In this document: positions 450 through 42,393 of the stretch, in pieces | Layout: each line of letters starts with the position of its first letter | Numbering within the stretch: position 1 is the first letter of the stretch | Source: Zymoseptoria tritici IPO323 | Lineage: Eukaryota; Ascomycota; Dothideomycetes; Mycosphaerellales; Mycosphaerellaceae | NCBI RefSeq assembly: GCF_000219625.1 | Contig: NC_018203.1 | Coordinates: 1 to 64,000, forward strand | Direction: 5' to 3' | DNA: 64,000 bases | Notes under the pieces: generated by a model | The model's input: the letters and a program-made list of their open reading frames with translations, nothing else | Told to the model about the DNA's origin: nothing | Database searches by the model: none | Translations under genes and position numbers: made by a program

Positions 450-498
450 CTTATAGCTCCGCTCGGGTCGACTTCGTCGACCCGAGCTACGCTATAAG
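450..498. repeat. Inverted repeat (hairpin)
   Basis: Two 23-base arms, 450-472 and 476-498, are complementary except for about three central mismatches and enclose a 3-base loop. Each arm carries CTTATAGC at its outer end and CTCGGGTCGAC at its inner end, read inward. The methyltransferase homology on the minus strand stops at the right arm, so the hairpin marks a breakpoint. Confidence 0.6.
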
Positions 499-3587: not shown

Positions 3588-5075
3588 ATGCTCGACGAAG
3601 TAGATAGAGTAGTGCGAATTCCCTTAGACATCCTGGACGCGCTCTTCTAGGCGACCGAACAGCGAGCCGGCGATGCGAACGACTTCGTTATCGTTCGCGC
3701 TAACGAGGCCCAGGACCGCCGCGAGGTCTGCTGTCTCTCTCGAGGATCCTAACGCCTTCGGGAACCGTTTGCCGTCTCCGAGGCTCAGGCTAAGGAGCAA
3801 CTAAGGCCGCATACGGAGAAAGAGATAGAGACTCGTGTAAACAAGGAGGTCCGCTAGCGCATATCGCGATATTTCGAAGAGAAGGCCTGCCGACAGATCT
3901 CGTCGGCAGTAGGAGCGGAAAGGCGGGGACAACAACGCCTACGCGCGACCTCCTCGCCTCCGCTAGCGTATACGGAGTATCCCTCCTCTACGCAGCCGGC
4001 ACTAGGCAGAGCGGGTAGTAAGGAGACAGCTCCTACGTCGGGAAGAAAGCGAAAGCGGGACGACTGCCGCGCACGGAGCTGCCTAGCGACGTTACCCCTT
4101 CGACGCTCTCTTCGTCGAGAGAAGTACTCCAAACCTACTATGGAAGACGGGGTAGAGGAAGACCAGCCGGCGGAGAGCGATAGGGAAGAAAACGAGCTAG
4201 AAGACGAGCAGCTGTTAAAGAAGCGTCGGAAGCCTATTTCGCCGCGGCAGGTAGTAGAAAGCGACGCCGACGAAGACGCCGTCGACAACGGCAGCGACGA
4301 CGGCAACAGGGAGCCCGAGGAGATCGTGGTCGCCAAGGTAAGGGCCGCCTCCTTATTCTGTCGCCTAAAAAGGTATCTGAAGCAGAGGCCGATGCAGCTT
4401 AAGGTACTAAAGGACCTACTACTACAGAAGCGCAAGTCTGGCAAGGGGACCCTAAGATCGACCATTTCCCGTAAGACTGTAGACGAGATAACAGGTCGAG
4501 AACCGGGAGCAGCAGCGGAAGCGAGAGAGCAGGACCCTGCGGATCCGGAGGGGAATAGCGGACTGGAGAACGCTAGAGGAGGGCCAGACCTACCTAGAAG
4601 CGATAGAGAAGGGTCAGATCCTCCCGAGAACGCTAGAGGAGGGCCAGACCTACCTAGAAGCGACAGAGAAGGATTAGATCCTCCCGAGAACGCTAGAGGA
4701 GGGCTAGACCCACCTGGAAGCGACAGAGCAGGGTTAGACCCTCCTAGAGGCGATAGAGGAGGGCTAGATCCTCCCGGAAGTACTAGAGGGACGTCGGATG
4801 TTCCGGAGAATACTAGGGAAAGACCAGACCCTCCTAGAAGCGATAGAGGAGGACTAGATCCTCCTATAAGCACTGGAGGGACGTCGGATGTTCCGGAGAA
4901 CACTAGGGAAAGACCAGACCCTCCTAGAAGCAATAGAGGAGGACCAGATCCTCCTATAAGCACTAGAGGGACGTCGGATGTTCCGGAGAACACTAGGGAA
5001 AGACCAGACCCTCCTAGAAGCGATGGAGGAGGACTAGATCCTCCTATAAGCACTAGAGGGACGCCGGATTCTTAG
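3588..5075 (+). pseudogene. Repeat-rich hypothetical protein, part 1 (RIP-damaged)
   Basis: Not recognised. From ATG at 3,588 one frame runs 495 codons to the stop at 5,073-5,075, broken by three early TAG/TAA codons near 3,647, 3,749 and 3,856 that fit RIP of Trp, Gln or Arg codons. Residues 1-180 are mixed and charged; about 185-230 are Asp/Glu-rich with a KKRRK nuclear-localisation-like string; about 260-310 are basic. The C-terminal third is a hydrophilic tandem repeat rich in PENARGG, RSDREG and GTSDVPEN. A 400-codon frame on the opposite strand is a by-product of the repeat. A second coherent frame (5,221-6,309) follows in another phase and may be the same gene after a frameshift or intron. 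Function unknown. Confidence 0.45.
4564..5065 (+). repeat. Coding tandem repeat, 60-bp then 90-bp units
   Basis: The first part repeats about every 60 bases (20 residues) and the second every 90 bases (30 residues): the string AGACCAGACC recurs at 4,821, 4,911 and 5,001. Both periods are multiples of three, so copy number can change without breaking the frame, as expected for a repeat expanding in a translated protein. Confidence 0.85.
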
Positions 5076-5220
5076 GAAGATACTCGCTAGCCGCCCTATA
5101 GTATGTTGAAACCCTCCGCCCTATACCGTCCGCTACTAACTATCCGAAGCCGGCGCTAAGGCCTAATGTGCAGAGGGCCTCCTACAGCTCCGCTAGCATC
5201 CTGCGGCGGCGGGCGCCGTG

Positions 5221-6309
5221 TCTAGTGTAGAGGGAGTAGGAGGCATTTCCCCTACCTACCCGGATTACCGCCTCTGGTATGACTTTGTTTAGGACGTCGC
5301 CGACAACGCCGGCAGCGCCGAGGACTATTACGTGAGCGCGCAAAGCCTACGGAAAACACAGGAGGTCGACCTAGGTCTCTAGAAGCACTTCGAGAAATGC
5401 CTCGCTATCGCTCGTAGGACTATAGGAACGACCGTGATCGACGAGTGGCGAGGCTTTTTGCAACAGAGTCGAGACCTATGCCGGCGGGATAGGGACGAGG
5501 GGGAGACAGCGTTCGTCGAGGACGAGAGGCAGGAGGAGAGGCGGGAGGTGGTCGCCGCGGCATATCGGGAGTACTGTACGGCCGTAGATTGCGAGGTGGG
5601 GATCTGGCGGTCGAACTTTGAGTTTCGCCGCGCGACAGTGCGCCTAGCGGACTAGCTGGACCTCTACAAGAAGCTCCCGCCGCGAGGATCGTCGCAGACG
5701 ACGGCGACAGTACTTCCGGACAAAATGCCCTCCGCGAGGGGGGCCCTCTTCCGGGAGATGCGTCCGGACTGGACTAACAGACTCCCTGCTAGCTTTACGA
5801 AAGAGGACGTAGTATAGGAGGGCCTGGGGACGGAATGGAACGCCTTTGAGCGTACGATTAAGGTAGGGAGGCGCTAGAGGAGGTTCGTAAGGGTTCTAAA
5901 CCTTAACGCCCTGCTCCTTATCGACCTCGGGAGGGATCTGTCCTACATCCAGCACACTATCCCGCTTCCCGTTTTTGTCGCCTGGGTCTATCTCATCCGT
6001 TGAGTGCGGCCGGAGATTGCGCCGACGGCCGAGCGACTCTAGAGGTAGAGGTACTACAACCGCGCGCGAACTGCCGCGAAACTATACGTGGCGAACCTGC
6101 GGCTCGAGATGCGTAGGTATCGCGAGCTGTCGCCGACGCAGCAGTTTGAATTCTCGGGCAGCGAGGACGGCGGGCCGCGGACGTGCGATCCGAGTGTCCT
6201 GTCGCAGCCCAGCGATGCGGTGACCGACGTCGACTGGGGTTCGTCGTTTTCGACCTTTCTGAACGACGAGGACGTAGGCGGAAGGGCTACGGAGGGACAG
6301 GATGGTTGA
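5221..6309 (+). pseudogene. Hypothetical protein, part 2 (RIP-damaged)
   Basis: Not recognised. A coherent plus-strand frame runs from about 5,221 to TGA at 6,307-6,309, with several internal TAG codons at positions that read naturally as Trp (for example near 5,296 and 5,653). The inferred protein is charged, with helix-like stretches rich in Arg and Glu and a Ser/Asp-rich tail; no catalytic motif was seen. It sits one phase off the repeat protein just upstream and ends where the LINE 5' repeat units begin. It could be the C-terminal half of that gene, or part of an extended upstream region of the distal LINE copy. I cannot tell which. Confidence 0.4.
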
Positions 6310-6415
6310 GAGGAAGCGCGGAGGAGATGAGGTCCAGCGAGTTATCTAAGTATAGATTTGATCCGGACCGGTCCGGCTCCTCTGATTCGTCGGCCGCAAA
6401 CTCTGAGCCCCACGT

Positions 6416-6433
6416 CTTGGTTAATTAACCAAG
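6416..6433. promoter_or_regulatory. 18-bp palindrome, unit 1
   Basis: Perfect palindrome CTTGGTTAATTAACCAAG inside the first 5' unit. It is a possible protein-binding site in the LINE 5' region; the function is inferred only from repetition and symmetry. Confidence 0.5.
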
Positions 6434-6977
6434 GTGGGTCCGTGCCTGGTCACGTAGGCCCAGAAGCGCACTGCTAAACTGTCCTACCCGGACTCCTCCC
6501 TCCCTTCTACGACCTCCTCCGCGGTAATTGCCTCTATCTCCTGCACGGCGAACTCCTCCGTCTCGTCCGCCTCGACGCGGATTTCGTTAAATCCGAGTCT
6601 GCTCGAGGGTAAAACAAGCTCTTATAGATACGACATGGAAGATTTTTAATAGACAGTTCTTCTTGTAATTGCCCGGTCTCGGAGCCCGTCTTTGTTGCGA
6701 AAGAAACCGTTACAAGGTTCAGAAGTGAGGTTTTCCAAGTATGCGACGAGCGTCGGATTCGTCTTGCTGCCCCGACTTGCCAGCAGACCCTTTACGAAGG
6801 ATTTTCGGGTTTCGACTACAACTAACAACACCCGAGCAAGATATAGTACTGCCGCGGAAGAGGATGGTTAAGAGGAAGCGCGGAGGAGATGAGGTCCAGC
6901 GAGTTATCCAAGTATAGATTCGATCCAGACCTGTCCGGCTCCTCTGATTCGTCGACTGCAAACTCTGAGCCCTACGT

Positions 6978-6995
6978 CTTGGTCAATTGACCAAG
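6978..6995. promoter_or_regulatory. 18-bp palindrome, unit 2
   Basis: CTTGGTCAATTGACCAAG is still a perfect palindrome, with matched changes on both arms relative to unit 1. This is probably the pre-RIP form, since symmetric CpA-to-TpA changes give the other version. Confidence 0.5.
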
Positions 6996-7094
6996 GTGGG
7001 TCCGTATCCGGTCGCGTAGACGAATCGGCCGCGACGGGAGGGCCGCTACGTCCTCCCCTGCCTATTGGCTGGCCGCAAACTCTGAGCCCTACGT

Positions 7095-7112
7095 CTTGGT
7101 TAATTAACCAAG
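7095..7112. promoter_or_regulatory. 18-bp palindrome, unit 3
   Basis: CTTGGTTAATTAACCAAG, identical to the copy at 6,416. Confidence 0.5.
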
Positions 7113-7581
7113 GTAGGTCCGTGCCTGGTCACGTAGACATAGAAGCGCACTGCTGAACTTTCCTACCTGGACTCCTCCCTCTCTGCTACGACCTCGCCGT
7201 CTCCTCCGCTCCGAACTCCTCCATCTCCTAGACTCCGACGTAGATTTCGTGCAATCCAAATCTGCTAGCGGGCGAATGAAGATCTAATATATACGATATC
7301 GAAGATTGAAAACAGACAATTCTTCTTATCATGACCCGCACTCGGAGCTTGTATTAGTTTCGAAAGAACCCGTCGTAAGGTTAAGAAGTTGGGTTCTAAA
7401 AGTATACGACGAGCCTCGAATTCGTCTGTTCGCCCCGACTAGTCGGCAGACCCTTAAGAAGGATTTTCGATGGTTAAGAGGAAGCGCGAAGGAGACGAGG
7501 TCCAGCGAGTTGTCAAAAGAGCCCTGCTCCAGACCCGTCCGGCTCCTCTAATTAGTCGACCGCAAACTCTAAGCCCCACGC

Positions 7582-7599
7582 CTTAGTTAATTAACCAAG
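7582..7599. promoter_or_regulatory. 18-bp palindrome, unit 4 (one arm changed)
   Basis: CTTAGTTAATTAACCAAG has one G-to-A change in the left arm, so symmetry is nearly but not fully kept. Confidence 0.45.
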
Positions 7600-7844
7600 G
7601 AGGGTCTGTGTCCGGTCGCTGGGACCAATTGGCGCACCGCTGAACTTCCCGCTGAGACTCCTCCCTCTCTACTACAACCTTGCCGTCTCCTCCGCTGGGA
7701 TTGCCTCTATGGCCTGCACTGCGAACTGCTCTACCTCCTCCGCCTAAACGCGGATTGTATCGCTTTCCGGAGCCATAGCTGAAGTCTACCCTTCTCACGA
7801 TATAGACGATGCTAGGGCAGGCCGGCTACGGATTACGGGTGTGG

Positions 7845-8385
7845 GCGGATTTCTCGCCTAATGCCGGGATAGGCGGATTTCCAGCCCACCTTGCCGCTGG
7901 GCGGATTTCTCGCCCAATGCTGGGATAGGCGGATTTCCAGCCCACCTTGCCGCTAGGCGGATTTCTCGCCCAATGCTAGGATAGGCGGATTTCCAGCCTA
8001 CCTTGCTGCTGGGCGGATTTCCAGCCCACCTTGCCGCTAGGCGGATTTCTCGCCTAATGCCGGGATGGGCGGATTTCCAGCCTACCTTGCCGCTGGGCGG
8101 ATTTCTCGCCTAATGCCGGGATAGGCGGATTTCCAGCCCACCTTGCCGCTAGGCGGATTTCTCGCCCAATGCTGGGATGGGCGGATTTCCAGCCCACCTT
8201 GCTGCTGGGCGGATTTCCAGCCCACCTTGCCGCTGGGCGGATTTCTCGCCCAATGCCGGGATGGGCGGATTTCCAGCCTACCTTGCCGCTGGGCGGATTT
8301 CTCGCCTAATGCCGGGATAGGTGGATTTCCAGCCTACCTTGCCGCTAGGCGGATTTTCCGCCTAATGCCGGGATGGGCGGCCTCC
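7845..8385 (+). repeat. 28/56-bp minisatellite in LINE copy 1
   Basis: Alternating 28-base half-units each start GGCGGATTT, one continuing CTCGCC and the other CCAGCC. About ten composite 56-base units are present, with mostly C/T and A/G differences. The same array is much shorter in copy 2. A single-copy AT-rich segment then separates it from a second short block. Confidence 0.9.
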
Positions 8386-8627
8386 GCCTAAAAGCAAAAC
8401 AGAAACTTCTAAGAATTATGGCTTTCTGCTTTTACCTCTCGTATCTCGCGTACATAGCTAATTTCAAAGATTCTGAGAACACGGAGAGTAACTCTAGTAT
8501 AAGAAGTTCCTTTCTATATGTCTATATTTAATTTAAGATCGTTATTATAGTGTTAAAAAAGGTCGAGAAACTTGAGGTGTCGCTGCTAGACTATGTGTCG
8601 GAATTTCTGTTTTGGCTTCCACACCTT
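8386..8627 (+). other. Conserved AT-rich spacer between minisatellite blocks
   Basis: A non-repetitive segment of about 240 bases, also found in copy 2 at about 16,906-17,150. No open frame. Its conservation between copies makes it part of the element's 5' untranslated region. Confidence 0.6.
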
Positions 8628-8745
8628 AGGTGGATTTCTAGCCCACCTTGCCGCTAGGCGGATTTCTCGCCTAATGCCGGGATAGGTAGATTTCCAGCCC
8701 ACCTTGCCGCTGGGCGGATTTCTCGCCTAATGCTAGGATAGGCGG
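8628..8745 (+). repeat. Second 28/56-bp minisatellite block, copy 1
   Basis: About two composite units of the GGCGGATTT-type repeat follow the AT-rich spacer. The equivalent block in copy 2 (17,151-17,432) is longer, so block lengths vary independently. Confidence 0.85.
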
Positions 8746-9775
8746 AGAGCTAACCTAGCAGCCGAACACGTAAGCGGCATACACCTCCTGCTCGACGCTT
8801 AAGAACAGCCACTGCAGAAACCTCTACGGACATAGAAGTCCTACGATATAAGAGCCTACGACGCTAGCGCTACTACGTGCAGCTTTGTTACGCTTTCTAC
8901 CAGGTGCCCGATAAGGAGGGGGTAGTGCTAAATATAGGCAGGAATTACTACGACGGGAGAGCACTACACTACGTCGTCGAGCTCCTCGTTAGCAAAAATA
9001 CGCGGATAGCGAGTCTAACGTAGATTTAACGGCCTACAGAGGACGGCTCGGGCATGAGAACGGCACGAGGGAGAACAGATTAACGAGAGTAGGGCGGAGG
9101 AGGAGGAGGGAGAAGACGTAGACACAGGAGATTCGAAAGCGAGACGGTAAGGCAACAGACAAGACCGGAGACGAGCTAGGCGAAGGGAGAGGAAGACGGG
9201 AGGATGAAGAGGATATAGGCTTAGTAGGACGGGATAGCATCGAGATAAGGACGATGTAACGATGCCTAGAGAGGACAATATAACAATGCCGGGGACAGCC
9301 TATTCTTAGACCGGGGAGTAGAGGAAGAGACGACGAGCAGGACGAGTAAGTACGGAGGGGAGGGTAGCCCTTTATACCACCACCTCGTCGAGTGTAACAA
9401 TTCTAATTAAGCCGTAGACCCTGGTAGACAGCGAGATAAGAGGATAGCTATCGACGATAACTATCGACGATCGTAAGGCTAACCCTGCTCGTAATTGTAA
9501 GAAGGACGACTACACCCCGGCCCTATAAGAGCCGGATGTGTTCCCTCCTCTCTAGAGCCTCGCTACTACCTGTTTACGCTCTTAGCCTCGGTTTTCCTCT
9601 GCGGTAGAGACTTCGAACTATCCGTAAGCACTCTCTACCTAGGTTACCCTCTCCTTCGAGTGCCTCCTACTACCGATCCCGACTCGTTACTTTGCCGACC
9701 TCTCCCTCGACGTTCCTCGTGGCTTCCTCCTCCCCTCTACCCTCGGCGTTGCCCTCTCTGCCCTCTAACCCTTAG
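8746..9775 (+). other. LINE copy 1 leader upstream of ORF1
   Basis: This is conserved in copy 2 (about 17,433-18,466). A short plus-strand frame at about 8,810-9,020 reads coherently for about 70 residues (with KEGVVLNIGRNYYDGRALHY) and has one RIP-type stop, so a small upstream peptide is possible. The rest is purine-rich with no recognised product. Confidence 0.45.
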
Positions 9776-11509
9776 ATGTTATCCAAACCGTCGACGAGCG
9801 CGGTACGGCCCTAGGAAGGTCTGACGGCCTTTGTAGACGCCCTCTGGGAGCTCTATAAGGGCGTTATCCCGTGCAGCGGCGAGATCGACTACTTTAGCGT
9901 CCTAAGGAACAAGACCGGACATCCCGACACGGAAGGACGATACTACCGCACCTTCGAGTGCAAGAAGTGTCGTACGAACAAAAGGCGTACCGTCAAGGCG
10001 TAGATTAAGAGCGTCACTGTAGAAATCGGCCGGTCGAGACTTATACTTGTGGCGTAAACGATCCTAGACTAGCTTCGTAACTGTAGTAAGGATACGGCCT
10101 AGCTCGTTGCCTGGATTGAAGATCGACTGGAGGAGCCGGTAACCGCGCCGGCGAAGCGAGCACTCGAGTCCGAGTCTTCGATCGAGATAGCGTCCGCGGA
10201 TTGTTAGTTAAGGAAGACGATCCGGCGTAAGGAGGACGTGTTCCTAGATATTGTCTCCACGGATCTTCCTTCTACGAGCATCCCTTCGACAAAGATTCCG
10301 TCGACGAATCTTCCTTCTACGGACATTCCTTCTACGGACATTCCTTCCACGGACATTCCTTCCACGGACATTCCTTCCACGGACATTCCTTCTACGGACA
10401 TTCCTTCTACGAGGCTCCCTACCGACATCCCTTTAACTAGGCTGCCTTCGATCGACATCCCCTCAACGATCCCTACCGTCCTCGTCCTAGAGACCGACCC
10501 TGCCGCGATTCTAGTCGACCCTATACTGAAGCCTATCGTACAGATACCCTTCTTTTAGAAATACGCCGAGGCCTGCCTGATCCGCGCAGCGAAGGAGACG
10601 AAGCAATTAGTTGACCGCCTCCTATATACCCTAGGCGAAGGTCCTCCTCATCGCTCGGACGAAGGTCCTCCTTATTGCTCGAGTGAAGATCCTCCGGACC
10701 CTCCTGGACCTAAAGACGGTGCGAGCGAGCACCGGAAGGAATCGAGACCTACTACGAACGGAGCCCTACCGCCTAGCCGGAACGACGCGCGAGTAGAGTC
10801 GATCGAGGAGAGACAGCGGAGGAAGAGTCTTCTACACTGTTCCGTCGAGGAGAAGCGTAGAGGGAAGAGTGTTCCTCCCGAGGTACGACCCTACGACCTC
10901 TTTCCTAGTAAGGACTACGACCTTCTCTCACCCTTTTCTACGGCATCCGTCCCTCCTCCCCTTATGCCCTCTCCGGATACGCCCTCTCCCGCAAAGGCGA
11001 AGGAGCTTACTCCCTTTCCGTTCTCTTCGTCGGGACGGTAGAGGCTATAGATCGCGGACCTAGCCGCGCGTACCGAACTAGTAACGCCCTCCCCGAAAGC
11101 GAAGACCTTCCAGATTCTCTCTGCGGAGCCGAAGCCACGAACGAAACTAACCTCTCCTTTAGTAGACTGTAAGCGGAAACCACTCTAACCCCGCTCTGTA
11201 AACCTTCCCGGGAGATCGTCTACGGATTAGGTCCGCGAGTTCGTCGATCGCTATCGAGAAGCTAATAACAAATTCAAAAGGCGAGTAGTGTAGTAGAAGG
11301 CAAAGAGTGCCGGCGTCTTCGACGAGTTTAAAGCCGAGCTGATACAGCAGGGGCTAGAAGAGGAGCCGGCGGGACGGGAGGATAGCCTAGGCTCGAAGAG
11401 AGAGACTTAAGGAGCATCCTCTAAGAGAGAGAGTCGAGAGGCATCCGGGGGAGGCGAGTCCTCTCGCGGGTCGCGAGACCAGGAGGAATGCTAGGATTGG
11501 ATGTATTAA
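9776..11509 (+). pseudogene. LINE ORF1 protein, copy 1
   Basis: The frame starts at ATG 9,776 and ends near 11,494-11,509, just overlapping ORF2 in the +1 phase. Several TAG/TAA codons fit RIP of Trp or Gln. The N-terminal 90 residues hold a CKKC pair (in ECKKCRTNKRR) that could be half of a zinc site. Around residues 160-230 is a Pro-Ser-Thr-Asp-Ile pentapeptide repeat, followed by Pro/Ser-rich linkers and a basic C-terminal region. LINE ORF1 proteins usually bind RNA; that role is inferred from position, since no RRM or CCHC array is visible. The true start may be further upstream. Confidence 0.6.
10260..10460 (+). repeat. 15-bp repeat in ORF1, copy 1
   Basis: Fifteen-base units encode a Pro-Ser-Thr-x-x pentapeptide, mostly PSTDI. 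Copy 1 has several more identical units than copy 2 (18,950-19,110), showing in-frame length change after duplication. Confidence 0.85.
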
Positions 11510-14500
11510 CATCCGGGGCTTAGGGGATAATAGGTGGCCGATCCTAGCGGCGCTAATTAACGACGACGTCCTCGACTACCTCTTTATCGTCGAGACCTAG
11601 TTCGTCGAGCATAAGAAGCGCCGAGCGGATTACTGCGTAATTGCGACCATGGTAAAGCCCGATACAGTGCCGAGAAAGGGTCGCTTGGGCTATAGGATTC
11701 TAGTAATAGGGACGGTACGCGCGCGAAGTTGGCTCACTGGCGAGGCGCAGATTATTAGGACGGATGCCATAACCCTGCCGACGGACTGGGGAACGATTAG
11801 CGGAGTCTACTTTCCCCCAAGCGGAAGCTAGATAAGGTCCGGTCTACGCTCGAGGCGGTTGCCGGCTCTAATGTCGTTCTCGGAGATATTAACGTCCGCT
11901 TTAGTAAGATGTCTCTCTAGAGCGGGAAGGCGTCGCCGCTTCCGAGACGGAAGGTCGTCTCGCGATAGATCGAGGACTCCGCGATAACCCATCTGAAGCC
12001 GATCTAGGAGCCGATCATGATTACGGACGCCGTATACGAGAAACAACTGACGACTAACTACTACTTTGTCCGCCAGACGCTACCGTATGCGACGCTAGCT
12101 CTACCGCGACCGACGGAGAAGATAAATACCGACCATGTCTACTGGCTCTACCTCCAGCTGGACCCGACTACGGGTACTCCGGGTAGATTAGCCGTGCCGT
12201 ATCAACTTCGACGCTATGCGATAAGCCGGCTGAACAACGACGATACGGCGCAGGCGCTCTACTTTGGCTAGGAGAGAAGGGCGCGGCATCGACGGCATCT
12301 ATACTATATGAGCGCCGATGTAGACAAGCAGAATGCGGAAATCGTATCGCTCTGCCAGTAGGTAAGCGAAGCCGTGCTAGGACTCGCCTCTACGCGTCGT
12401 CGAAATCGTCCTCTAGGTAGACGAAAGGCGGAGGATATAAGTGACGGAGGCGGAGAGAAGAAGAATAGAGGCGGAGAGAAGAAGGATCGAGACGGAGAGA
12501 AGAAGGATAGAGGCGGAGAGAAGAAGGATCGAGAGGGAGAGAAGAAGGATCGAGAAGGAGAGAAGAAGGATCGAGAGGGAGAGAAGAAGGATTAAGAGGG
12601 AGAGAAGAAGAATAGAGGTAGAGAGAAGAACGACGGGCCTCGAAAGGCAATAACAGACCCGAAGCGAAAGCAAGCCGAAGATAATGACGACGCCGCTTGC
12701 AAGCCAAAGCCGCTACGCCGCCGTGGTAAGAAGAAGAAGGACTAGCGTCTTAAGGCGATGGCGAAGCCGAATCCGGACGCCGATAGCGGGACGCTCGAGA
12801 CGGTCCGTCTCTATAAGAGAGCGTAGCGCCGCGCGAACGAGAACACACTACTAGTGCCGACCCCGGCGGGGAAGGCGAGAGGGATAACGGCAATCGACGA
12901 GGTAACAGAGGGATTTGCCAATCGATTCGTCTCGACGGCGACCCTCCTGGTACGGGAGATGTTTCCTATCGACGATCGATCCGCCTCGCTCTCCTTCTCG
13001 ATCGACGAGATAATACAGGAGCTTACCTACTAGGATGCTACGAAGGCCTACGGAAACGATAGGGTACATATCTGTCTTATGAAAACCCTCGCGACGACGA
13101 GCTTCCTCCGGATCCTGGCCGCCCTCTACAATTCCTATCTCCGGAATAGTAAGACGCTGCGGAGCTAGAACGAAACTGTCGTCTGTCTGGTCGTTAAGGA
13201 CAAGACCCGACAGGAGGATGGTATAATACCGGCGAAGGACGCCAACAACGTTCGTCCGATCTTACTAGTAACGATGTTTCGAAAGGTCTTCGAGCGCCTA
13301 CTCCTCCGGCGCTTTAATAGTAGGACATAGGCGAGGATGCATCCTAACCAGGCGGGATTTCGAAGTTACCACTCTACTATAACGAACGCTGCGGTCGTCC
13401 ACGCCCTCCTCGAATCGAGCCGGATTACATACGCTGTGTTCCTCGATTTTTAAGCCGCCTTTAACATCATAGATTATGTACTGCTCGCGGACGTTCTACG
13501 CCGGCGGAGATGTCCGGAGAATATGCTAGCTCTAATTGCGAGCCTCTACTTTTTCGACGTCTGGTCCTTTATCGTTTCGGATTATACGGCTTCTCGGTGG
13601 TTTCCGCGGACGAGGGGAGTTCTACAGGGCTTACCCCTCTCGCCCTATCTGTTTAACATCTTTATCGATAGCTTGCTCGAGGACTTAAATCGACCTAGGA
13701 TACTCGCCCTAGCCGGCTCTTCCGACGTGATGCCCGCGGCGCCGCCAATTCCTCGCGCGCTGTTCTTCGCCGATTATAGTGTTCTCCTCGCTAGCGACTT
13801 GGACGAGGTGCGGGTACTAATCCAGATCCTCGAGCGCTGGTCCTCCGCTAACCGCATCGCCCTAAACATTAAAAAATGCGCCTATCTAGCTCTAGCGTCT
13901 TCGTAGGAGGCGATCTACCTCTTTAGTGTAGAGGTACTGAGGAGAGAGGTATATACCTACTTCGGATTTCCCGTAACAGCGCGAGGGATTGACTTAAGGA
14001 GGCACCTTAAGAGCCGGCTCGAATAGGCCGGGAAACGAAGCGACTTCCTGACCCTCGACGCGGATAGTTAGGGCTTTACGCATCGCCTGCAAGTCTATTA
14101 GTAGTATCTCGCACCGATGTTCGAGTATGGCGCGCCTCTCCTCGCGGCGTTTGCCGAGAACTCTCCTAAGTTCTAGGACGAGACGACTAAGGACGTTGCG
14201 AAGCTGACAAAGTGGATCTCGGGTTATGCTTCTAACCCTTACTTTACTCGCAATCTCCTAGGAATCTCCGCCCTACCCTCGCGATTTAAAGCACTAAAAA
14301 CTAGCTTTTAGGTCGTAAAGAAGCACGCTCCGGAAGAAAGTCTACTACGGAAGTTGGGATTACTAATCTGGAAACCTAAAGCGTTCTTCCGGCGCTTGAC
14401 GGAGGACAAGCTCTACGAGAAGTACCGCAAGACACCCGAGTCCTGGCCTCGCGACCGAAGCCTTAGCGAAGACCGCCGTTCTGTCTAGCGGTTCCTGCGC

Positions 14501-14947
14501 TAGGAGAGAGAGGAAGATATGGCCAAAGAGGCTAAGAAGTGGAGCCTAACCCGGATTATACCGGAAGAAAGCCGCCTGAAGCGGGACTTACGAGGAGCCG
14601 ATTACTTTTTAAAGGCGCCGCGGTCCTTCTAGAAGCGCTTCCTCCAGTATCGGCGTAGAACCTTCTATACCTATGGTTTCTGCGTCTGTACTAGCAAATT
14701 CATCCGAGGATACGAGACTTGCTACTAGGAAAACAGGACGAGCTAGCTCTCGAGGAAGGAACGACGGGCGAAGCAGAAGATGCATAAGAAAATGGGCACT
14801 ACGAACACGAAGTTTACCGAGGTAGACTTCCTTCTAAATACAGGATGCTAGGAGCGAGCTAACAAGATCCTCGAGCGAATCTCGACGAAGATTACAAAGG
14901 AGGAAGCTACAAAGGAGGAAGCGGAGGAAGCGGCGGCACAGACCTAG
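11490..14947 (+). pseudogene. LINE ORF2: APE endonuclease and reverse transcriptase, copy 1
   Basis: It opens with INIRGLGD and LFIVET strings typical of APE-type (EEP) endonucleases and has LGDIN near 11,880. One C is missing in the C-run near 11,815 compared with copy 2, shifting the frame. A Glu/Lys repeat linker (about 12,455-12,620) precedes the reverse transcriptase, which shows NNVRPI, HPNQAGFR, FLDF-AAFN, GVLQGLPLSPYLFN and the catalytic box FADY where FADD is expected (near 13,770). The C-terminus has a CxC...C cluster like the knuckle of R1/Tad1-type LINEs; Tyr stands at the expected His, which copy 2 keeps. In-frame stops and the lost catalytic Asp show it is dead. No RNase H domain was seen. 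Family placement near Tad1/R1 is inferred. Confidence 0.85.
12455..12620 (+). repeat. 18-bp GEKKDR-type repeat in ORF2, copy 1
   Basis: Eighteen-base units encode Gly-Glu-Lys-Lys-Asp-Arg variants between endonuclease and reverse transcriptase. About nine to ten copies are present, against about four in copy 2 near 21,085. The linker is charged and probably helical. Confidence 0.85.
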
Positions 14948-14962
14948 TGCACACTGTCCTAA

Positions 14963-15212
14963 GTAGGATGTTAAAAGGCTCCGTCCGATAAGTAGGACGT
15001 TAAAAGGCTCCGTCCGATAAGTAGGACGTTAAAAGGCTCCGTCCGATAAGTAGGACGTAAAGTAGCTCCGTCCGATAAGTAGGACGTTAAAAGGCTCCGT
15101 CCGATGGGTAGGACGTAAAGTGGCTCCGTCCGATGGGTAGGACGTAAAGTGGCTCCGTCCGATGGGTAGGACGTAAAGTGGCTCCGTCCGATAGGTAGGA
15201 CGTAAAGTGGCT
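14963..15212 (+). repeat. 29-bp minisatellite after ORF2, copy 1
   Basis: About nine units of 29 bases, each with GTAGGACGT and GGCTCCGTCCGAT. Unit variants (AAGTAGG and GGGTAGG) alternate in runs. Copy 2 has about seven units at 23,487-23,690. Confidence 0.9.
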
Positions 15213-16135
15213 CCGTCGACCCGGGACGTAAAAGCGGAGATCATCCCTCGAGGATAAATTGGGCGTTTACCCTATCGAAAAGGAGTCTCTTCCCTCGAGA
15301 TAAAAGTAGGCGTCCGATTGGTAGGACGTTAAAAGGCCGCGCTGCGACGTGGGAGACGTAGGCGACTGGCGAGGCCCGGACTGGCTCCGCACCGGACAAT
15401 CAACTCTATCCGGAAGGCCTAGCGGTAGATGTGAGGCGTGTACCCTAGATCTGCGGCTGCTTCCTCTCAAAGCCGGGGAGCGGGAGGAAGAAAACTAGTA
15501 CCTCTGCAGAGCAGTAGGAGGCTTAGAGGAAAGCGAAGGCGACGGCGTAGTAGGGGAGAGGAGTGGACGACGACGATCGCTAGAGGAGGAATTCTAGCCG
15601 AAGGGAAGACGGCACTCCCCAAACCGTTCGGGAAGCACTTGTGGACTAGTGTGCAAGCGGCTCGATTAGAATCGAATGTCTCCGATAGTAGATACGCCAG
15701 ACGGAGGGAGGACAGAGCTCCACCGAACGGTCTTAAAGCAGGATGTTCCCCCTTAACGAGACGGGATTACAGTTTCGGGCGGATGAGGAGACGCACACCT
15801 TGTCCGTCACCTAGGAGGTTTAGAAACCTAAGGTACGATGGACGGTAAGCGATTGCCGGAGCAATATTATGCGTTAGGATGCGGACTAGCCTATCGGTAG
15901 TCTCTCTTTTTGGCGGTTTGGTCAACTCGGGAGATGATAAAAAGGACACCGTAAAACGTAGTTGGGCTTGGAGTAGCTGCGGTACCGTGCATCGCGAGGC
16001 GCTTTACGTGGGAGCGTAGGTCTGTTTCCTCCCCTCTAAAGACGGCCAAAAGAGCCGGGAGCAAGGGCTTGGATAGGGCTTCAGTTCAGATTAGGTGCAA
16101 AGGTAGACTAGCCTATATAAACAAGTACAATGAAC
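15213..16135 (+). other. LINE copy 1 3' region
   Basis: About 0.9 kb conserved in copy 2. A plus-strand frame at 15,438-15,848 is not kept intact in copy 2, so I treat the stretch as 3' untranslated region. It ends GTACAATGAACC directly before the telomeric repeats, the same end as copy 2, which defines the element's 3' end precisely. Confidence 0.7.
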
Positions 16136-16152
16136 CCCTAACCCTAACCCTA
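16136..16152 (+). repeat. Interstitial telomere tract between LINE copies
   Basis: About 2.8 units of CCCTAA lie exactly between the 3' end of copy 1 and the 5' end of copy 2, in the same orientation as the terminal telomere. Confidence 0.95.
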
Positions 16153-16440
16153 CGATATCGAAGATTGAAAACGGACAATTCTTCTTGTCATGACCCGCAC
16201 TCGGAGCTTGTATTAGTTTCGAAAGAACCCGTCGTGAGGTTAAGAAGTTGGGTTCTAAAAGTATACGACGAGCCTCGAATTCGTCTGTTCGCCCCGACTA
16301 GTCGGCAGACCCTCAAGAAGGATTTTCGATGGTTAAGAGGAAGCGCGAAGGAGACGAGGTCCAGCGAGTTGTCGAAAGAGCCCTGCTCCAGACCCGTCCG
16401 GCTCCTCTAATTAGTCGACCGCAAACTCTAAGCCCCACGC

Positions 16441-16458
16441 CTTAGTTAATTAACTAAG
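16441..16458. promoter_or_regulatory. 18-bp palindrome, LINE copy 2
   Basis: CTTAGTTAATTAACTAAG is a perfect palindrome with both arms changed relative to the units of copy 1. It lies at the equivalent position of the 5' unit. Confidence 0.45.
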
Positions 16459-16702
16459 GAGGGTCCGTGTCCGGTCGCTGGGACCAATTGGTGTACTACT
16501 GAACTTCCCGCTAAGACTCCTCCCTCTCTACTACAACCTCGCCGTCCCCTCCGCTAGGATTGCCTCTATAGCCTATACTGCGAACTGCTCTACCTCCTCC
16601 GCCTAAACGCGGATTGTATCGCTTTCCGGAGCTATAGCTAAAGTCTACCCTTCTCACGATATAGACGATGCTAGGGCAGGCCGGCTACGGATTATAGGTG
16701 TA

Positions 16703-16905
16703 GGCGGATTTCTCGCTTAATACCGGGATGGGCGGATTTCCAGCCCACCTTGCCGCTAGGCGGATTTCTCGCCTAATGCTGGGATAGGTGGATTTCTAGC
16801 CTACCTTGCTGCTGGGCGGATTTCTCGCCCAATGCCGGGATAGGCGGATTTCCAGCCCACCTTGCCGCTAGGCGGATTTTCCGCCCAATGCCGGGATAGG
16901 CGGCC
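16703..16905 (+). repeat. 28/56-bp minisatellite block 1, copy 2
   Basis: About three to four composite GGCGGATTT units, far fewer than the ten at the same place in copy 1. Confidence 0.9.
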
Positions 16906-17150
16906 TCCGCCTAAAAGCAAAACGGAAACTTCCAAGAATTATAGCTTTCTGCTTTTACCTCTCGTATCTCGCGCACATAGCTAATTTCAAAGATTCTAAG
17001 AACACGGAGAGTAACTCTAGTATAAGAAGTTCCTTTCTATGTGTCTATATTTAATTTAAGATCGTTGTTGTAGTATCAAAAAAGGTCGAGAAACTTAAGG
17101 TGTCGCTGCTAGACTATGTGTCGGAATTTCCGTTTTGGCTTCCACACCTT

Positions 17151-17432
17151 GGGCGGATTTCCAGCCCACCTTGCCGCTAGGCGGATTTCTCGCCTAATGC
17201 CGGGATAGGTGGATTTCCAGCCCACCTTGCCGCTGGGCGGATTTCTCGCCTAATGCCGGGATGGGTGGATTTCTAGCCCACCTTGCCGCTGGGCGGATTT
17301 CTCGCCTAATGCCGGGATGGGCGGATTTCCAGCCCACCTTGCCGCTGGGCGGATTTCTCGCCTAATGCCGGGATGGGTAGATTTCCAGCCTATCTTGCCG
17401 CTGGGCGGATTTCTCGCCTAATGCTAGGATAG
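17151..17432 (+). repeat. 28/56-bp minisatellite block 2, copy 2
   Basis: About five composite units, against about two in copy 1. Confidence 0.9.
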
Positions 17433-18466
17433 GCGGAGAGCTGACCTAGCAGCCGAACACGTAAGCGGCTTACACCTCCTGCTCGACGCTTAAGAACAGC
17501 CACCGCAGAAACCTCTACGGACATAGAAGTCCCACGATATAAGAGCCTACGACGCTAGCGCTACTACGTGCAGCTTTGTTACGCTTTCCACCGGGTGCCC
17601 GATAAGGAGGGGGTAGTGCTAAATGTAGGCAGGAATTACTACGACAGGAGAGCACTACACTACGTCGTCGAGCTCCTCGTTAGCAAAAATACGCGGATAG
17701 CGAGTCTAACGTAGATTCAACGGCCTACAGAGGACGGCTCGGGCACGAGAACGGCACGAGGGAGAATAGATTAACGAGAGTAGGGCGGAGGAGGAGGAGG
17801 GAGAAGACGTAGACATAGGAGATTCGAAAGCGAGACGGTAAGGCAACAGACGAGACCGGAGACGAGCTAGGCGAAGGGAGAGGAAGACGGGAGGATGAAG
17901 AGGACATAGGCCTAGTAGGACGGGATAGCATCGAGATAAGGACAATGTAATGATGCCTAGAGAGGACGATATAACGATGCCGGGGACAGCCCATTCTCGG
18001 ACTAAGGAGTGGAGGAAGAGACGACGAGCAGGACGAGTAAGTACAGAGGGGAGGGTAGCCCTTTATACTACTACCTCGTCGAGTGTAACGATTCTAATTA
18101 AGCCGTGGACCCTAGTAGACGGCGAGATAAGAGGATAGCTATCGACAATAACTATCGACGATCGTAAGGCTAACCCTACTCGTAATTATAAGAAGGACGA
18201 CCACACCCCGGCCCTATAAGAGCCGGATGTGTTCCCTCCTCTCTAGAGCCTCGCTACTATCCGTTTACGCTCTTAGCCTCGGTTTTCCTCTACAGTAGAG
18301 ACTTCGAACTATCCGTAAGCACTCTCTACCTAGGTTGCCCTCTCCTTCGAGTGCCTCCTACTACCGATCCCGACTCGTTACTTCGCCGACCTCTCCTTCG
18401 ACGTTCCTCGTAGCTTCCTCCTCCCCTCTACCCTCGGCGTCGCCCTCTCTGCCCTCTAACCCTCGG

Positions 18467-20140
18467 ATGTTATCTAAACCGTCGACGAGCGCGGTACGGC
18501 CCTAGGAAGGTCTGACGGCCTTTGCGGACGCCCTCTAGGAGCTCTACAAGGGCATTATCCCGTGCGGCGGCGAGATCGACTACTTTAGCGTCCTAAGGAA
18601 CAAGACCGGACATCCCGACACGGAAGGACAATACTACCGCACCTTCGAGTACAAGAAGTATCGTACGAACAAAAGGCGTACTATCAAGGCGTAGATTAAG
18701 AGCGTCACTGCGGAAATCGGCCGGTCGAGACTTATACTTATAGCGCAAACGATCCTAGACCAGCTTCGTAACTATAGTAAGGATACGGCCTAGCTCGTTG
18801 CCTGGATTGAAGATCGACTAGAGGAGCCGGTAACCGCGCCGGCGAAGCGAGCACTTAAGTCCGAGTCTTCGATCAAGACGGCGTCCGCGGATTGTCGGTT
18901 AAGGAAGACGATCCGGCGTAAGGAGGACGTGTTCCTAGATATTCCCTCTACGGATCTTCCTTCTACGAGCATCCCTTCGACGAAGATTCCGTCGACGAAT
19001 CTTCCTTCCATAGACATTCCGTCTACGGACATTCCTTCTACGAGGCTCCCTACTAATATCCCTTTAACTAGGCTGCCTTCGATCGATATCCCCTTAACGA
19101 TCCCTACCGTCCTCGTCCCGGAGACCGACCCTGCTACGATTCCAGTTAACCCTGTACCGAAGCCTATTGTACGGATACCCTTCTTTTAGAAATACGCCGA
19201 GGCCTGCCTGATCCGCGCGGCGAAGGAGACGAAGCGATTGGTTGACCGCCTCCTATACACCCTAGGCGAAGGTCCTCCTTATCGCTCAGACGAAGGTCCT
19301 CCTTATTGCTCGAGTAAAGATCCTCCGGACCCTCCTAGACCTAAAGACGGCGCGAGCGAGCACTAGAAGGAATCGAGACCCGCTACGAACGGAGCCCCAC
19401 CGCCTGGCCAGAATAACGCGTAAGCGGAGTCGATCGAGGAGAGACGGCGGAGGAAGAGTCTTCCGTACTGTTCCGTCGAGGAGAAGCGCAGAGGGAAGAG
19501 TGTTCCTCCTAAGGTACGACCCTACGACCTCTTTCCTAGTAAGGACTACGACCTTCTCTTGCCCTTTTCTACAGCATCCGTCCCTCCTCCCCTCGTGCCC
19601 TCTCCGGATACGCCCTCTCCCGCAAAGGCGAAGGAGCTTACTCCCTTTCTATTCTCTTCGTCGGGACGGTAGAGGCCGTAGATCGCGGACCTAGCCGCGC
19701 GTGCCGAACTAGTAACGCCCTCCCCGAAAGCGAAGACCTTCCGGATTCTCTCTGCGGAGCCGAAGCTATAAACAAAACCGACCTCTCCTTTAGCGGACCG
19801 TAAGCGGAAACCACTCTAACCCCGCTTTGTAAACCTTCCCGGGAGATCGTCTACGGATTAGGTCCGCGAGTTCGTCGATCGCTATTAAGAAGCCGATAAC
19901 AAATTCAAAAGGCAAGTAGTGCGGCAGAAGGCGAAGAGTACCAGCATCTTCGACGAGTTCAAAGCCGAGCTGATACGGCAGGGGCTAGAAGAGGAGCCGG
20001 CGGGACAGGAGGATGGCCCAGGCTCGAAGAGAGAGACTTAAGGAGCATCCTCTAAGAGAGAGAGTCGAGAGGCATCCGGGAGAGGCAAGTCCTCTCGCGG
20101 GTCGCGAGACTAGGAGGAATGCTAGGATTAGATGTATTAA
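18467..20140 (+). pseudogene. LINE ORF1 protein, copy 2
   Basis: Same architecture as ORF1 of copy 1, with fewer pentapeptide repeats. Both cysteines of the CKKC pair are changed to Tyr (TGC/TGT to TAC/TAT type), a transition expected from RIP. Stops at Trp and Gln positions are present. The frame ends within about 20 bases of the ORF2 start, in a different phase. Confidence 0.6.
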
Positions 20141-23100
20141 CATCCGGGGCTTGGGGGATGATAGGTAGCCGATCCTAGCGGCGCTAATTGACGACGACGT
20201 CCTCGACTACCTCTTTATCGTCGAGACCTAGTTCGTCGAGTATAAGAAGCGCCGAGCGGATTACTACGTAATTGCGACCACAGTGAAGCCCGATATAGTG
20301 CCGAGAAAGGGTTGCTTGGGCTATAGGATTCTAGTAATAGGGACGGTACGCGCACGAAGTTGGCTCACCGGCGAGGCGCAGATCATTAGGACGGATGCTA
20401 TAACCCTGCCGACGGACCGGGGAACAATTAGCGGAGTCTACTTTCCCCCCAAGCGGAAGCCGGATAAGGTCCGGTCTACGCTCGAGGCAGTTGCCGGCTC
20501 CAATGTCGTTCTCGGAGATATTAACATCTACTTTAGTAAGATGTCTCTCTAGAGCGGGAAGGCGTCGCTACTTCCGAGACGGAAGGTCGTCTCGCGATAG
20601 ATCGAGGACTCCGCGATGACCTATCTAAAGCCAATCTAGGAGCTGATTACGATTGCGGACGCTATGTGCGAGAAACAACTGACGACTGACTACTACTTTG
20701 TCCGCCGGACGCTGCCGTATGCGACGCTAGCTCTACCGCGACCGACGGAGAAGATAAATACCGACTATGTCTACTGGCTCTACCTCTAGCTAGACCCGAC
20801 TACGGGTACTCTAGGTGGATTAGCCGTGCCGTATCAACTTCGACACTATGCGATAAGCCGGCTGAACAACGACGATACGGCGCAGGCGCTCTGCTATAGC
20901 TAGGAGAGAAGGGCGCGGCATCGACAGCATCTGTACTATATGAGCGCCGATGTGGACAAGCGGAATGCGGAAATTATGTCGCTCTGCCAGCAGGTAAGCG
21001 AAGCTGTGCTAGGACTCGCCTCTACGCGTCGTCGAAATCGTCCTCTAGGTAGACGAAAGGCGGAGGATATAAGTGACAGAGGCGGAGAGAAGAAGAATAG
21101 AGGCGGAGAGAAGAAGGATCAAGACGGAGAGAAGAAGGATAGAGGTAGAGAGAAGAACGACAGGCCTCGAAAGGCGATAATAGACCTGAAGCGAAAGCGA
21201 GCCGAGGATGATAACAACGCTGCTCGCAAGCCAAAGCCGCTACGCCGCCGTAGTAAGAAGAAGAAGGACTGGCGTCTTAAGGCAATGGCGAAGCCGAATC
21301 CGGACGCCGATGGCGGGACGCTCGAGACGGTCCGTCTCTATAAGAGAGCGTAGCGCCGCGCGAACGAGAATACACTGCTGGTGCCGACCCTAGCGGGGAA
21401 GGCGAGAGGGATAACGGCAATCGACGAGGTAACAGAGGGATTTGCCGGTCGATTCGTCTCGACAGCGACCCTCCTAGTACAGGAGATGTTTCCTATCGAC
21501 GATCGATCTACCTTGCTCTCCTTCTCGATCGACGAGATAATATAGGAGCTTACCTACCAGGATGCTACGAAGGCCTACGGAAACGATAGGGTACATATCC
21601 GTCTAATAAAAACCCTCGCGACGACGAGCTTCCTCCAGATCCTGGCCGCCCTCTATAATTCCTATCTCCGGAATGGTAAGACGCTGCGGAGCTGGAACGA
21701 AACTGTCGTCTATCTGGTCGTTAAGGATAAGACCCGACGGGAGGATGGTACAATGCCGGCGAAGGACGCTAACAACGTTCGTCCGATCTCGCTAGTAACG
21801 ATGTTTCGAAAGGTCTTCGAGCGCCTACTCCTCCAGCGCTTTAATAGTAGGACATAGGCGAGGATGCATCCTAACCAGGCGGGATTTCGAAGTCACTACT
21901 CTACTATAACGAACACCGCGGTCGTCTACGCCCTCCTCGAATCGAGCCGGATTACACACGCCGTGTTCCTCGATTTTTAAGCCGCCTTTAACGTTGTAGA
22001 TTATGTACTACTCGCGGACGTTCTACGCCGGCGGAGATGTCCGGAGAACATGCTAGCTCTGATTGCGAGCCTCTACTTTTTCGACGTCTGGTCCTTTGTC
22101 GTTTCGGATAGTACGGCTTCTTAGTGGTTTCCGCGGACGAGGGGAGTTCTGCAGGGCTCACCCCTCTCGCCCTATCTGTTTAACATCTTTATCGATAGCT
22201 TGCTCGAGGACTTAAATCGACCTAGGACACTCGCCCTAGCCGGCTCTTCCGACGTAATGCCTGCAGCGCCGCCGATTCCTTGCGCGCTGTTCTTCGCCGA
22301 TAATGGTGTTCTCCTCGCTAGCGACTTAGACGAGGTGCGTCTACTAATCCAGATCCTCGAGTGCTGGTCCTCCGCCAACCGCATCGCCCTAAACATTAAA
22401 AAATGCGCCTATCTAGCTCCGGCGTCTTTGTAGGAGGCGATCTACCTCTTTAGTACGGAGGTACTAAGGAGAGAGGTATATACCTACCTCGGATTTCCCG
22501 TAACGGCGCGAGGGATTGACTTAAGGAGGCACCTTAAGAGCCGGCTCGAATAGGCCGGGAAACGAAGCGACTTCCTAACCCTCGACGCGGACGGTTAGGG
22601 CTTTATACATCGCCTACGAGTCTATTAGTAGTATCTCGCACCGATGTTCGAGTATAGCGCGCCTCTCCTCGCGGCGTTTGCCGAGGACTCTCCTAAGTTC
22701 TAGGACGAGACGACTAAGGACGTTGCGAAGCTAACGAAGTGGATCTCGGGTTATGCTTCTAACCCTTACTTTACTCGCAATCTCCTAGGAATCTCCGCCC
22801 TACCCTCGCGATTTAAGGCACTAAAAACTAGCTTTTAGGTCGTAAAGAAGCACGCTCCGGAAGAAAGTCCGCTACAGAAGTTGGGATTACTAATCTGGAA
22901 ACCCAAAGCGTTCTTCCGGCGCTTAACGGAGGATAAGCTCTACGAGAAGTACCGCAAGACACCCGAGTCCTAGCCTCGCGACCGAAGCCTTAGCGAAGAC
23001 CGCCGTTCTGTCTAGCGGTTCCTGCGCTAGGAGAGAGAGGAAGATATAGCCGAAGAGGCTAAGAAGTGGAGCCTAACCTGGATTATACTGGAAGAAAGCT

Positions 23101-23474
23101 GCCTAAAGCGGGACTTACGAGGAGCCGATTACTTTTTAAAGGCGCTGCGGTCCTTCTAGAAGCGCTTCCTCTAGTATCGGCGTAGAACCTTCTATACCTA
23201 TGGTTTCTACGTCTGTATAAGCAAATTCATCCGAGGACACGAGACTTGCTACTAGGAAAACAGGACGAGCTAGCTCTTAAGGAAGGAACGACGGGCGAAG
23301 CAGAAGATGCATAAGAAAATAGGCACTACGAACACGAAGTTTACTAAGGTAGACTTCCTTCTAAATACAGGATGCTAGGAGCGAGCTAACGAGATCCTCG
23401 AGCGAATCTCGACGAAGATTACGACGGAGGAAGCTACGAAGGAGGAAGCGGAGGAAGCGGCGGCACAGACCTAG
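20121..23474 (+). pseudogene. LINE ORF2: APE endonuclease and reverse transcriptase, copy 2
   Basis: One uninterrupted phase of about 1,118 codons, broken only by TAG/TAA codons. Endonuclease strings INIRGLGD and LGDIN, reverse-transcriptase strings HPNQAGFR, FLDF-AAFN and GVLQGSPLSPYLFN, and catalytic box FADN are seen; the second Asp is Asn, a TpG-to-TpA change. The C-terminal knuckle retains its His (RGHETC) and its second Cys, but its first Cys is Tyr in some readings. This copy lacks the frameshift of copy 1 and is the better template for judging the ancestral layout. Confidence 0.85.
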
Positions 23475-23486
23475 TGTACACTGTCC

Positions 23487-23690
23487 TAGGTAGGACGTTA
23501 AAAGGCTCCGTCCGATAAGTAGGACGTTAAAAGGCTCCGTCCGATGAGTAGGACGTTAAAAGGCTCCGTCCGATGAGTAGGATGTAAAAAGGCTCCGTCC
23601 GATGGGTAGGACGTAAAGTAGCTCGGTCCGATGAGTAGGACGTAAAGTGGCTCTGTCCGATAAGTAGGACGTAAAGTGGCTCCGTCGACC
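23487..23690 (+). repeat. 29-bp minisatellite after ORF2, copy 2
   Basis: About seven 29-base units of the GTAGGACGT/GGCTCCGTCCGAT type, two fewer than in copy 1. Confidence 0.9.
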
Positions 23691-24604
23691 TAGGACGTAA
23701 AAGCGGAGATCATCCCTTGAGGATAAATTAGGCGTTTACCCTATCGAAAAGGAGTCTCTTCCCTTAAGATGAAAGTGGGCGTCCGATCGGTAGGACGTTA
23801 AAAGGCTGCGCTGCGACGTGGGAGACGTAGGCGACTGGCGAGGCCCGGACTGGCTCCGCACCGGACGATCAACTCTATCCGGAAGGCCTAGCAGTGGATG
23901 TAAGGCGTGTACCCTAGATCTGCGGCTGCTTCCTCTTAAAGCCGGGGAGCGGGAGGGAGAAAACTAGTACCTCTGCAGAGCAGTAGGAGGCTTGGAGGAA
24001 AGCAAAGGCGACGGCGTAGTAGGGGAGAGGAGTGGACGACGACGATCGCTGGAGGAGGAATTCTAGCTAAAGGGAAGACGGCACTCCCTAAACCGTTCGG
24101 GAAGCACTTGTGGACTAGTGTGCAAGCAGCTCGATCGGAATCGAATGTCTCCGACAGTAGATACGCCGGACGGAGGGAGGACAGAGCTCCACCGAACGGT
24201 CTTAAAGCAGGATGTTCCCCCTTAACGAGACGGGGTTACAGTTTCGGGCGGATGAGGAGACGCACACCTCGTCCGTCACCTGGGAGGTTTGGAAACCTAA
24301 GGTACGATAGACGGTAAGCGATTGCCGGAGCGATATTATGCGTTAGGATGCGGATTAGCCCATCGGTAGTCTCTCTTTTTGGCGGTTTGGTTAACTCGGG
24401 AGATAATAAAAAGGACACTATAAAACGTAGTTAGGCTAGGAGTAGCTGCGGTGCCGTACATCGCGAGGCGCTTTACGTGGGAGCGTGGGTCTGTTTCCTC
24501 CCCTCTAAAGACGGCCAAAAGAGCCGGGAGCAAGGGCTTGGATGGGGCTTTAGTTCAGATCAGGTGCAAAGGTAGACTAGCCTATATAAACAAGTACAAT
24601 GAAC
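23691..24604 (+). other. LINE copy 2 3' region
   Basis: It matches the 3' region of copy 1 nearly base for base, with transitions. No supported coding region. It ends GTACAATGAACC before the inner telomeric tract. Confidence 0.7.
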
Positions 24605-24624
24605 CCCTAACCCTAACCCTAACC
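24605..24624 (+). repeat. Inner interstitial telomere tract
   Basis: About 3.3 CCCTAA units separate LINE copy 2 from the helicase region. The sequence to its right (ACCTTCGGCGACGG) is the old subtelomere, so this is probably the stump of the former chromosome end. Confidence 0.95.
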
Positions 24625-42060: not shown

Positions 42061-42113
42061 AGTTCAGGCAGTATTTCCGTCGAGGGATCTATTCGATAGT
42101 AAGCTTTAGAAAA

Positions 42114-42388: not shown

Positions 42389-42393
42389 ATTCT
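42389..42393. repeat. Target-site duplication of Gypsy-2, right
   Basis: ATTCT, the second copy of the target duplication. Confidence 0.9.

Follow-up and report, generated by a model that had tools for sequence, protein, structure and literature searches.

The window analysed here is a 64,000-nt stretch of Zymoseptoria tritici IPO323 (NC_018203.1, positions 1 to 64,000, forward strand), the left tip of contig C16 (607,044 bp) in a genome of 39,686,251 bp and 21 contigs. Inward of the terminal telomere it carries two copies of a large long interspersed nuclear element (LINE), which appears to be telomere-specific and to encode an apurinic/apyrimidinic endonuclease (APE)-type endonuclease and a reverse transcriptase (RT) (Table 1).

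Table 1. Coordinates of the terminal telomere, the LINE copies and their parts in the window (ORF, open reading frame; UTR, untranslated region)
Feature	Positions	Strand	Detail
Terminal telomere	1-140	+	(CCCTAA)23
LINE copy 1	6299-16136	+	5' end within 5' tandem array; degraded by repeat-induced point mutation (RIP)
5' tandem units, copy 1	6299-7841	+	roughly 560-680 bp apart
56-bp minisatellite, 5' region of copy 1	7842-8380	+	copy 2 counterpart between 16701 and 17424
Broken ORF2, copy 1	11325-14968	+	frame break near 11816-11819
Telomeric tract after copy 1	16136-16152	+	CCCTAACCCTAACCCTA; doubles as outer flank of copy 2
LINE copy 2	16152-24605	+	5'-truncated, 8.45 kb
ORF1, copy 2	18230-20122	+	approximate; placed from better preserved C9 copy
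ORF2, copy 2	19956-23474	+	read through about 30 stops
APE-type endonuclease domain, copy 2	20106-20798	+	modelled from C17 copy (L055)
21-bp minisatellite, copy 2	21058-21157	+	encodes endonuclease-RT linker
RT domain, copy 2	21762-22499	+	RVT_1, E 1.6e-24
29-bp minisatellite in 3' UTR, copy 2	23483-23701	+	copy 1: 14960-15217
Telomeric tract after copy 2	24605-24624	+	CCCTAACCCTAACCCTAACC

Structure and coding capacity of the two copies

A sequence-only reading of the window had described two copies in the same orientation with one 3' end followed by CCCTAA, the second starting within two bases of the telomeric tract. Both points hold: GTACAATGAACC occupies 16125-16136, with CCTAACCCTAACCCTA after it, and 24594-24605, with CCTAACCCTAACCCTAACC after it, and copy 2 starts within the TA (16151-16152) that closes the first tract and is shared with it. 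The same reading took the array to be embedded in telomeric repeats, which is true in that tracts follow both copies, but these are very short (17 nt or ~2.8 repeats between the copies, 20 nt or ~3.3 repeats after copy 2) and the 5' flank of copy 1 is non-telomeric. Matches to CCCTAACCCTAACCCTAA number 22 in the window, against a mean of 0.00 across 100 shuffles; 21 lie inside the terminal tract and one begins at 24605.

Copy 1 is collinear with copy 2 from 7293, with main blocks at 92.1-94.6% identity (BLASTN, copy 2 as query). The element is unusually large, as had been suggested, reaching 8.45 kb even in the 5'-truncated copy 2 and 9.8 kb in copy 1. Its exact 5' end was not found, since the 5' tandem array extends past every readable stretch, and its full length therefore exceeds 9.8 kb. 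On C17, LINE homology spans C17:59650-70851, including an inserted DNA transposon of ~1 kb. This transposon occupies one site of the 5' array; 25 places have it there, two of them on C9 and two on C21, and it is seen in C17 at L055:1-365 and L059:478-1201, with inverted ends recognized by eye; in copy 1 of the window the site, near 6766-6776, is empty (by eye). Related sequence without the array occurs at C10:1541075 (95%) and C13:61654 (74%).

ORF1 of the C9 copy (L048:1972-3867) has 632 codons with two stops and is overlapped over 149 nt by the ORF2 frame. It matched no Pfam family over the cut-off and no PDB entry, and none of the 7,994 candidates that were scored was a homolog at E <= 0.001. 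For ORF2, RVT_1 was detected in nine of nine Z. tritici copies (best 1.8e-28), and all 86 relatives found by protein search have the FADD box of LINE-type RT. The assignment to the APE-type LINEs was upheld by fold and motif tests of the N-terminal endonuclease, whose active site does not vary among the relatives covering it. Pfam alone matched no endonuclease family in the nine copies, although RVT_1 was found, and the domain may have been missed earlier for that reason. We at first took the final DH motif of the endonuclease as lost, most of the nine copies reading LRR; alignment to intact relatives ruled this out by placing the motif ~25 residues earlier, where the C9 copy has TDH and most of the other aligned copies TDY.

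When ORF2 of 11 copies was compared with the C9 copy, we counted 70-334 transitions and 3-12 transversions per about 3.5 kb; the copies are accordingly young but mutated. RIP-type changes (CpA or TpG toward TpA) account for 25-197 of the transitions per copy and for more than half of them in 10 of the 11 copies, the exception being the C17 copy (25/70); since the C9 reference is itself damaged, its own changes are counted among the other transitions.

Genome-wide distribution, junctions and flanking sequence

In the whole genome, 63 sites match the 3'-terminal 16-mer ACAAGTACAATGAACC exactly and five more match it with one mismatch; the 16-mer itself is free of telomeric repeat. All 68 are subtelomeric and followed directly by telomeric repeat, as a separate search with TACAATGAACCCCTAACCC cross-checked; none lies at a non-telomeric location and none has a junction other than CCCTAA, which bears out the telomere specificity expected from the window. 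Looser mismatch limits bring in interior chance matches (117 and 109 in a backward control at <=3 mismatches), and the 18 two-mismatch matches listed include three element copies. A wider genome listing gave 84 places (controls, 3 and 2), from which four three-mismatch rows were left out: C3:2850068 and C10:206106, interior and due to chance, and C14:35792 and C14:36336, subtelomeric and damaged, one of them lacking a clean CCCTAA. The other 80, among them C13:1185637 with only about nine element letters before its tract, are spread over 35 of 42 arms, none further than 85.4 kb from a chromosome end, and in every one the 5' end faces the terminus. At least 40 matches were obtained with a 601-bp RT query and at least 59 with an ORF2 protein query; all 40 and all 59 of the matches listed have the same orientation, up to 68.3 and 66.2 kb from the end, respectively. 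These end distances make use of what we take to be the lengths of C11 and C18.

For the junctions we considered all matches with <=3 mismatches in readable stretches and dropped none, leaving 52 junctions (50 distinct). At every one, (G/A)AAC closes the element and CCCTAA comes next, with four C in 49 and five C in three, so the fixed phase noticed in the window is general. No poly(A) 3' end is present among the 52, each reading (G/A)AACC and then CCCTAA units with no A run. Perfect proximal tracts measure 11-24 nt, their lengths peaking at 12, 17-18 and 23-24, and many are extended by degenerate repeats (CCCTATAA or CCCTAAA, for example), to a maximum of 59 nt including these. At seven readable chromosome termini the telomere is 119-145 nt (20-24 repeats). 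Under uniform insertion across 20 repeats, the probability that 50 junctions all fall at two to four repeats would be ~1e-41, a figure that ignores later shrinkage or decay of the tracts.

At their outer side, 5'-truncated pieces adjoin the terminal telomere at the left ends of C4, C5 (via degenerate units), C7 and C10, and at the right end of C7 a piece of only ~16 nt has a telomeric tract on either side. The inner elements of stacks have many different truncation starts, each after a short tract. Microhomology at 5' junctions varies from 0 to about 6 nt (by eye); 5' truncation with a constant 3' end is the pattern of APE-type LINEs. A dispersed repeat is represented at C9:18889-19629 by its final ~740 bp, which end in (ACAA)n and lead into GTACAATGAACC and (CCCTAA)4. 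In this stretch (L048, C9:18889-19644) the last 12-16 nt of the LINE and telomere repeats are thus fused to a repeat that is present in the interior in both orientations and whose (ACAA)n tail, in three dispersed copies examined, is followed by unrelated DNA. The simplest reading of the chimera is probably a template switch, with reverse transcription starting from the LINE 3' end at a telomere and moving within ACAA to another RNA. The dispersed repeat (97%) also comes after the tract of the element at C7:435.

Most of the window shows a RIP-like CpA-to-TpA bias, except for two gene-like stretches at 48-52 and 62-64 kb; the strongest signal is at 42001-48000, where the CpA/TpG ratio is very low (0.12-0.24) and GC is 0.41-0.44. 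A minus-strand frame at 301-3298, adjacent to the terminal telomere, matches DUF7893 (PF25423, 6.9e-26) and might belong to a subtelomeric gene repeat that is already known, and the sequence at 137-515 also borders the right terminal telomere of C7 (L013). Between this frame and copy 1, 3857-6298 is repeat-rich subtelomeric sequence, open over 405 codons in both strands, pieces of which come after LINE telomeric tracts on C14 and C7 with differing cut points (by eye).

Insertion mechanism and alternatives

We consider it probable (roughly 0.8) that the element is a telomere-specific, two-ORF, APE-type LINE that is reverse-transcribed at telomeres, whatever the primer. Its RNA would be reverse-transcribed from its own 3' end (...GTACAAUGAAC) on a 3'-OH of the telomeric G-strand ending in ...TTAGGG, and priming at this point would place the 3' end inward and the 5' end toward the chromosome terminus. 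That the 3'-OH is made by the element's own endonuclease is somewhat favoured. The predicted enzyme would nick the G-strand after GGG in the innermost repeats, needing about two repeats proximally, as SART1 does; a nick there is preferred because the active site is strictly conserved among relatives. The cDNA would usually be incomplete, producing 5' truncation, telomere repeats (presumably added by telomerase) would cap the new outer end, and later insertions into the cap would build tandem stacks; the nick, the capping and this order of events we infer, whereas the location, orientation and junction phase of the copies, their short proximal tracts, the fold and motifs of the endonuclease and the RT are observed.

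Several observations weigh against this account, the nick in particular. A random nick in a telomere of 20-24 repeats predicts long proximal tracts, and none of the 52 is perfect beyond 24 nt; either insertion uses the innermost repeats only, or the tracts become shorter or degenerate, or a short chromosome end serves as primer. The ceiling of two to four repeats is the strongest point for end priming, from which the same phase would also be expected. An endonuclease fold is shown, and site-specific cleavage is a prediction. The C-to-T change from DH to DY in most of the nine copies means that those copies could hardly cut, ORF2 has about 30 stops in each window copy (and a frame break in copy 1), leaving neither frame intact, and no intact copy was found in the genome, as far as scored. 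Copy 1 adjoins other, non-telomeric subtelomeric sequence at its outer side (6299), target-site duplications are not discernible in a simple-repeat target, and exchange between subtelomeres, instead of insertion, may account for the spread of some copies.

The alternative that survives best, though we think it unlikely to be the usual route, is terminal addition, in which the LINE RT would extend the natural G-strand 3' end of a short or newly healed telomere (two to four repeats) without a nick and telomerase would then continue; it falls within the share of likelihood that we do not give to the nick. Drosophila telomere elements are added to ends in this way without a nick, a point on which PMC7265360 touches. 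Addition to ends is also what PMC4522978 proposes for endonuclease-lacking telomeric Penelope-like elements. Terminal addition would account for perfect proximal tracts of ~2-4 repeats at 52 of 52 junctions against 20-24 repeats at the seven readable termini, and for the orientation and the telomere-capped, 5'-truncated ends, making a second cut unnecessary. An active site invariant in all covering relatives is, however, hard to explain if unused, and the floor of about two repeats equally fits an endonuclease recognition need such as that given for SART1 in PMC7265360 (12 bp upstream).

Some LINEs have simple-repeat tails, and the telomeric repeats might accordingly be encoded at the RNA 3' end, with insertion elsewhere and the location near ends secondary. 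The repeat of at least 11 nt at 52 of 52 junctions looks as though the element included two repeats, but this explanation is strongly disfavoured by the absence of matches (0/68 at 0-1 mismatch) outside subtelomeres, the strict orientation (80/80), the telomere-capped 5' ends at four chromosome tips, and the variable and degenerate units past the first two. It is still less likely that a LINE without target preference survives in subtelomeres alone, with recombination copying it from end to end. Junctions are shared in places (C1:26904 and C1:62514 have identical flanks), and one DNA-transposon insertion is common to 25 places; against this, 50 of the 52 downstream 60-mers are distinct, all telomeric and in one phase, the orientation is single, and very short pieces retain intact 3' ends. 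Least likely is an endonuclease-lacking Penelope-like element of 3.4-3.5 kb, as put forward by Dhillon et al. 2014 (PMC4522978), with which position, orientation and 3' repeats agree and which the long copies contradict.

Relatives and known telomeric elements

Among 105 protein search matches, 86 (P0002-P0087) are relatives with 32-56% identity and endonuclease-RT architecture, mostly about 1,000 amino acids long and mostly from metagenomes; the named sources include one Cladosporium sp. NU13 and one entry filed under the plant Escallonia rubra, perhaps from an associated fungus. In an RT tree of 43 rows, built without named R1, TRAS, SART, Tad1 or MoTeR references, the element and 19 sampled relatives form one clade with 100/100 support. 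A dispersed LINE of the same genome (P0126), assumed to be Tad1-like after PMC4522978, falls outside this 20-row clade on a long branch; long branches were flagged and the deeper order is without resolution. A profile search of the protein database returned no member named R1, TRAS, SART or MoTeR.

The suggestion that the family was undescribed did not hold, as a subtelomere-only repeat of this kind is already in PMC4522978, though classed as Penelope-like. That study describes non-long-terminal-repeat family 4 of M. graminicola (Z. tritici) IPO323 as subtelomere-only, with 34 full-length copies of 3.4-3.5 kb, 49 truncated copies and 13 tandem cases, and with one to three TTAGGG at a 3' end that points away from the telomere, and proposes an endonuclease-lacking Penelope-like element. 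Family 4 as described there resembles our element in its subtelomere-only location, orientation, 3' TTAGGG repeats and tandem truncated copies, and differs in size and in lacking an endonuclease, the element here reaching at least 8.45-9.8 kb with ORF1, an APE-type endonuclease and RT. The distance from the 21-bp minisatellite in ORF2 to the 3' end is about 3.45 kb, matching the 'full-length' size of 2014. Because position, orientation, tandem arrangement, copy number and this distance agree, we take family 4 to be the LINE described here, judging by the published description rather than by consensus letters. The lack of an endonuclease that goes with the Penelope-like assignment does not apply to the element, and the published class is very probably wrong; this corrects the class of one of two subtelomere-only repeats in a much-used reference genome.

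The passages that we read in openly available papers (PMC4522978, PMC7265360, PMC8381367, PMC5576322, PMC6710886, PMC9970103, PMC7014611, PMC8445621 and PMC12857005) describe no APE-type fungal telomere LINE. Among the closest known systems are TRAS1 and SART1 of the silkworm, which share with our element the APE-type endonuclease fold, insertion into telomere repeats and a fixed phase. According to PMC7265360, SART1 needs three repeats, with 12 bp upstream, to which we liken the floor of about two repeats here. In contrast to TRAS1 and SART1, the element has no poly(A) tail, lives in a fungal host with TTAGGG repeats and shows perfect tracts of at most four repeats at 52 junctions.

MoTeR1 of Magnaporthe and FoTeR of Fusarium oxysporum are likewise fungal telomere LINEs with the 5' end toward the terminus, and FoTeR further shares many variable-number tandem repeats, short 3' telomere tracts (3-7 repeats) and RIP. 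Both carry a C-terminal restriction-enzyme-like (REL) nuclease of the CRE/SLACS group, according to PMC12857005, whereas our element has an N-terminal APE-type endonuclease. The REL pattern (CCHC then RHD/N, modelled on the published one) matched none of 95 rows, and RHD or RHN alone occurred within the last 250 residues in five of them. We tentatively propose, as a possibility that is some way from likely, that the element represents a lineage of APE-type LINEs, belonging to Dothideomycetes and relatives, whose own endonuclease targets telomeres, a further independent origin of such targeting and the first of APE type in fungi, using only nascent or innermost telomeres (two to four repeats) and acting beside telomerase as an agent of chromosome-end repair. 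The rule of 2-4 repeats, together with the template-switch chimera, opens the choice between nicked telomeres and short ends to testing. Set against the REL nucleases that PMC12857005 describes for MoTeR1 and FoTeR, an APE-type telomere LINE in a fungus would mean that, within one kingdom, the targeting of telomeres arose in LINEs with either type of nuclease.
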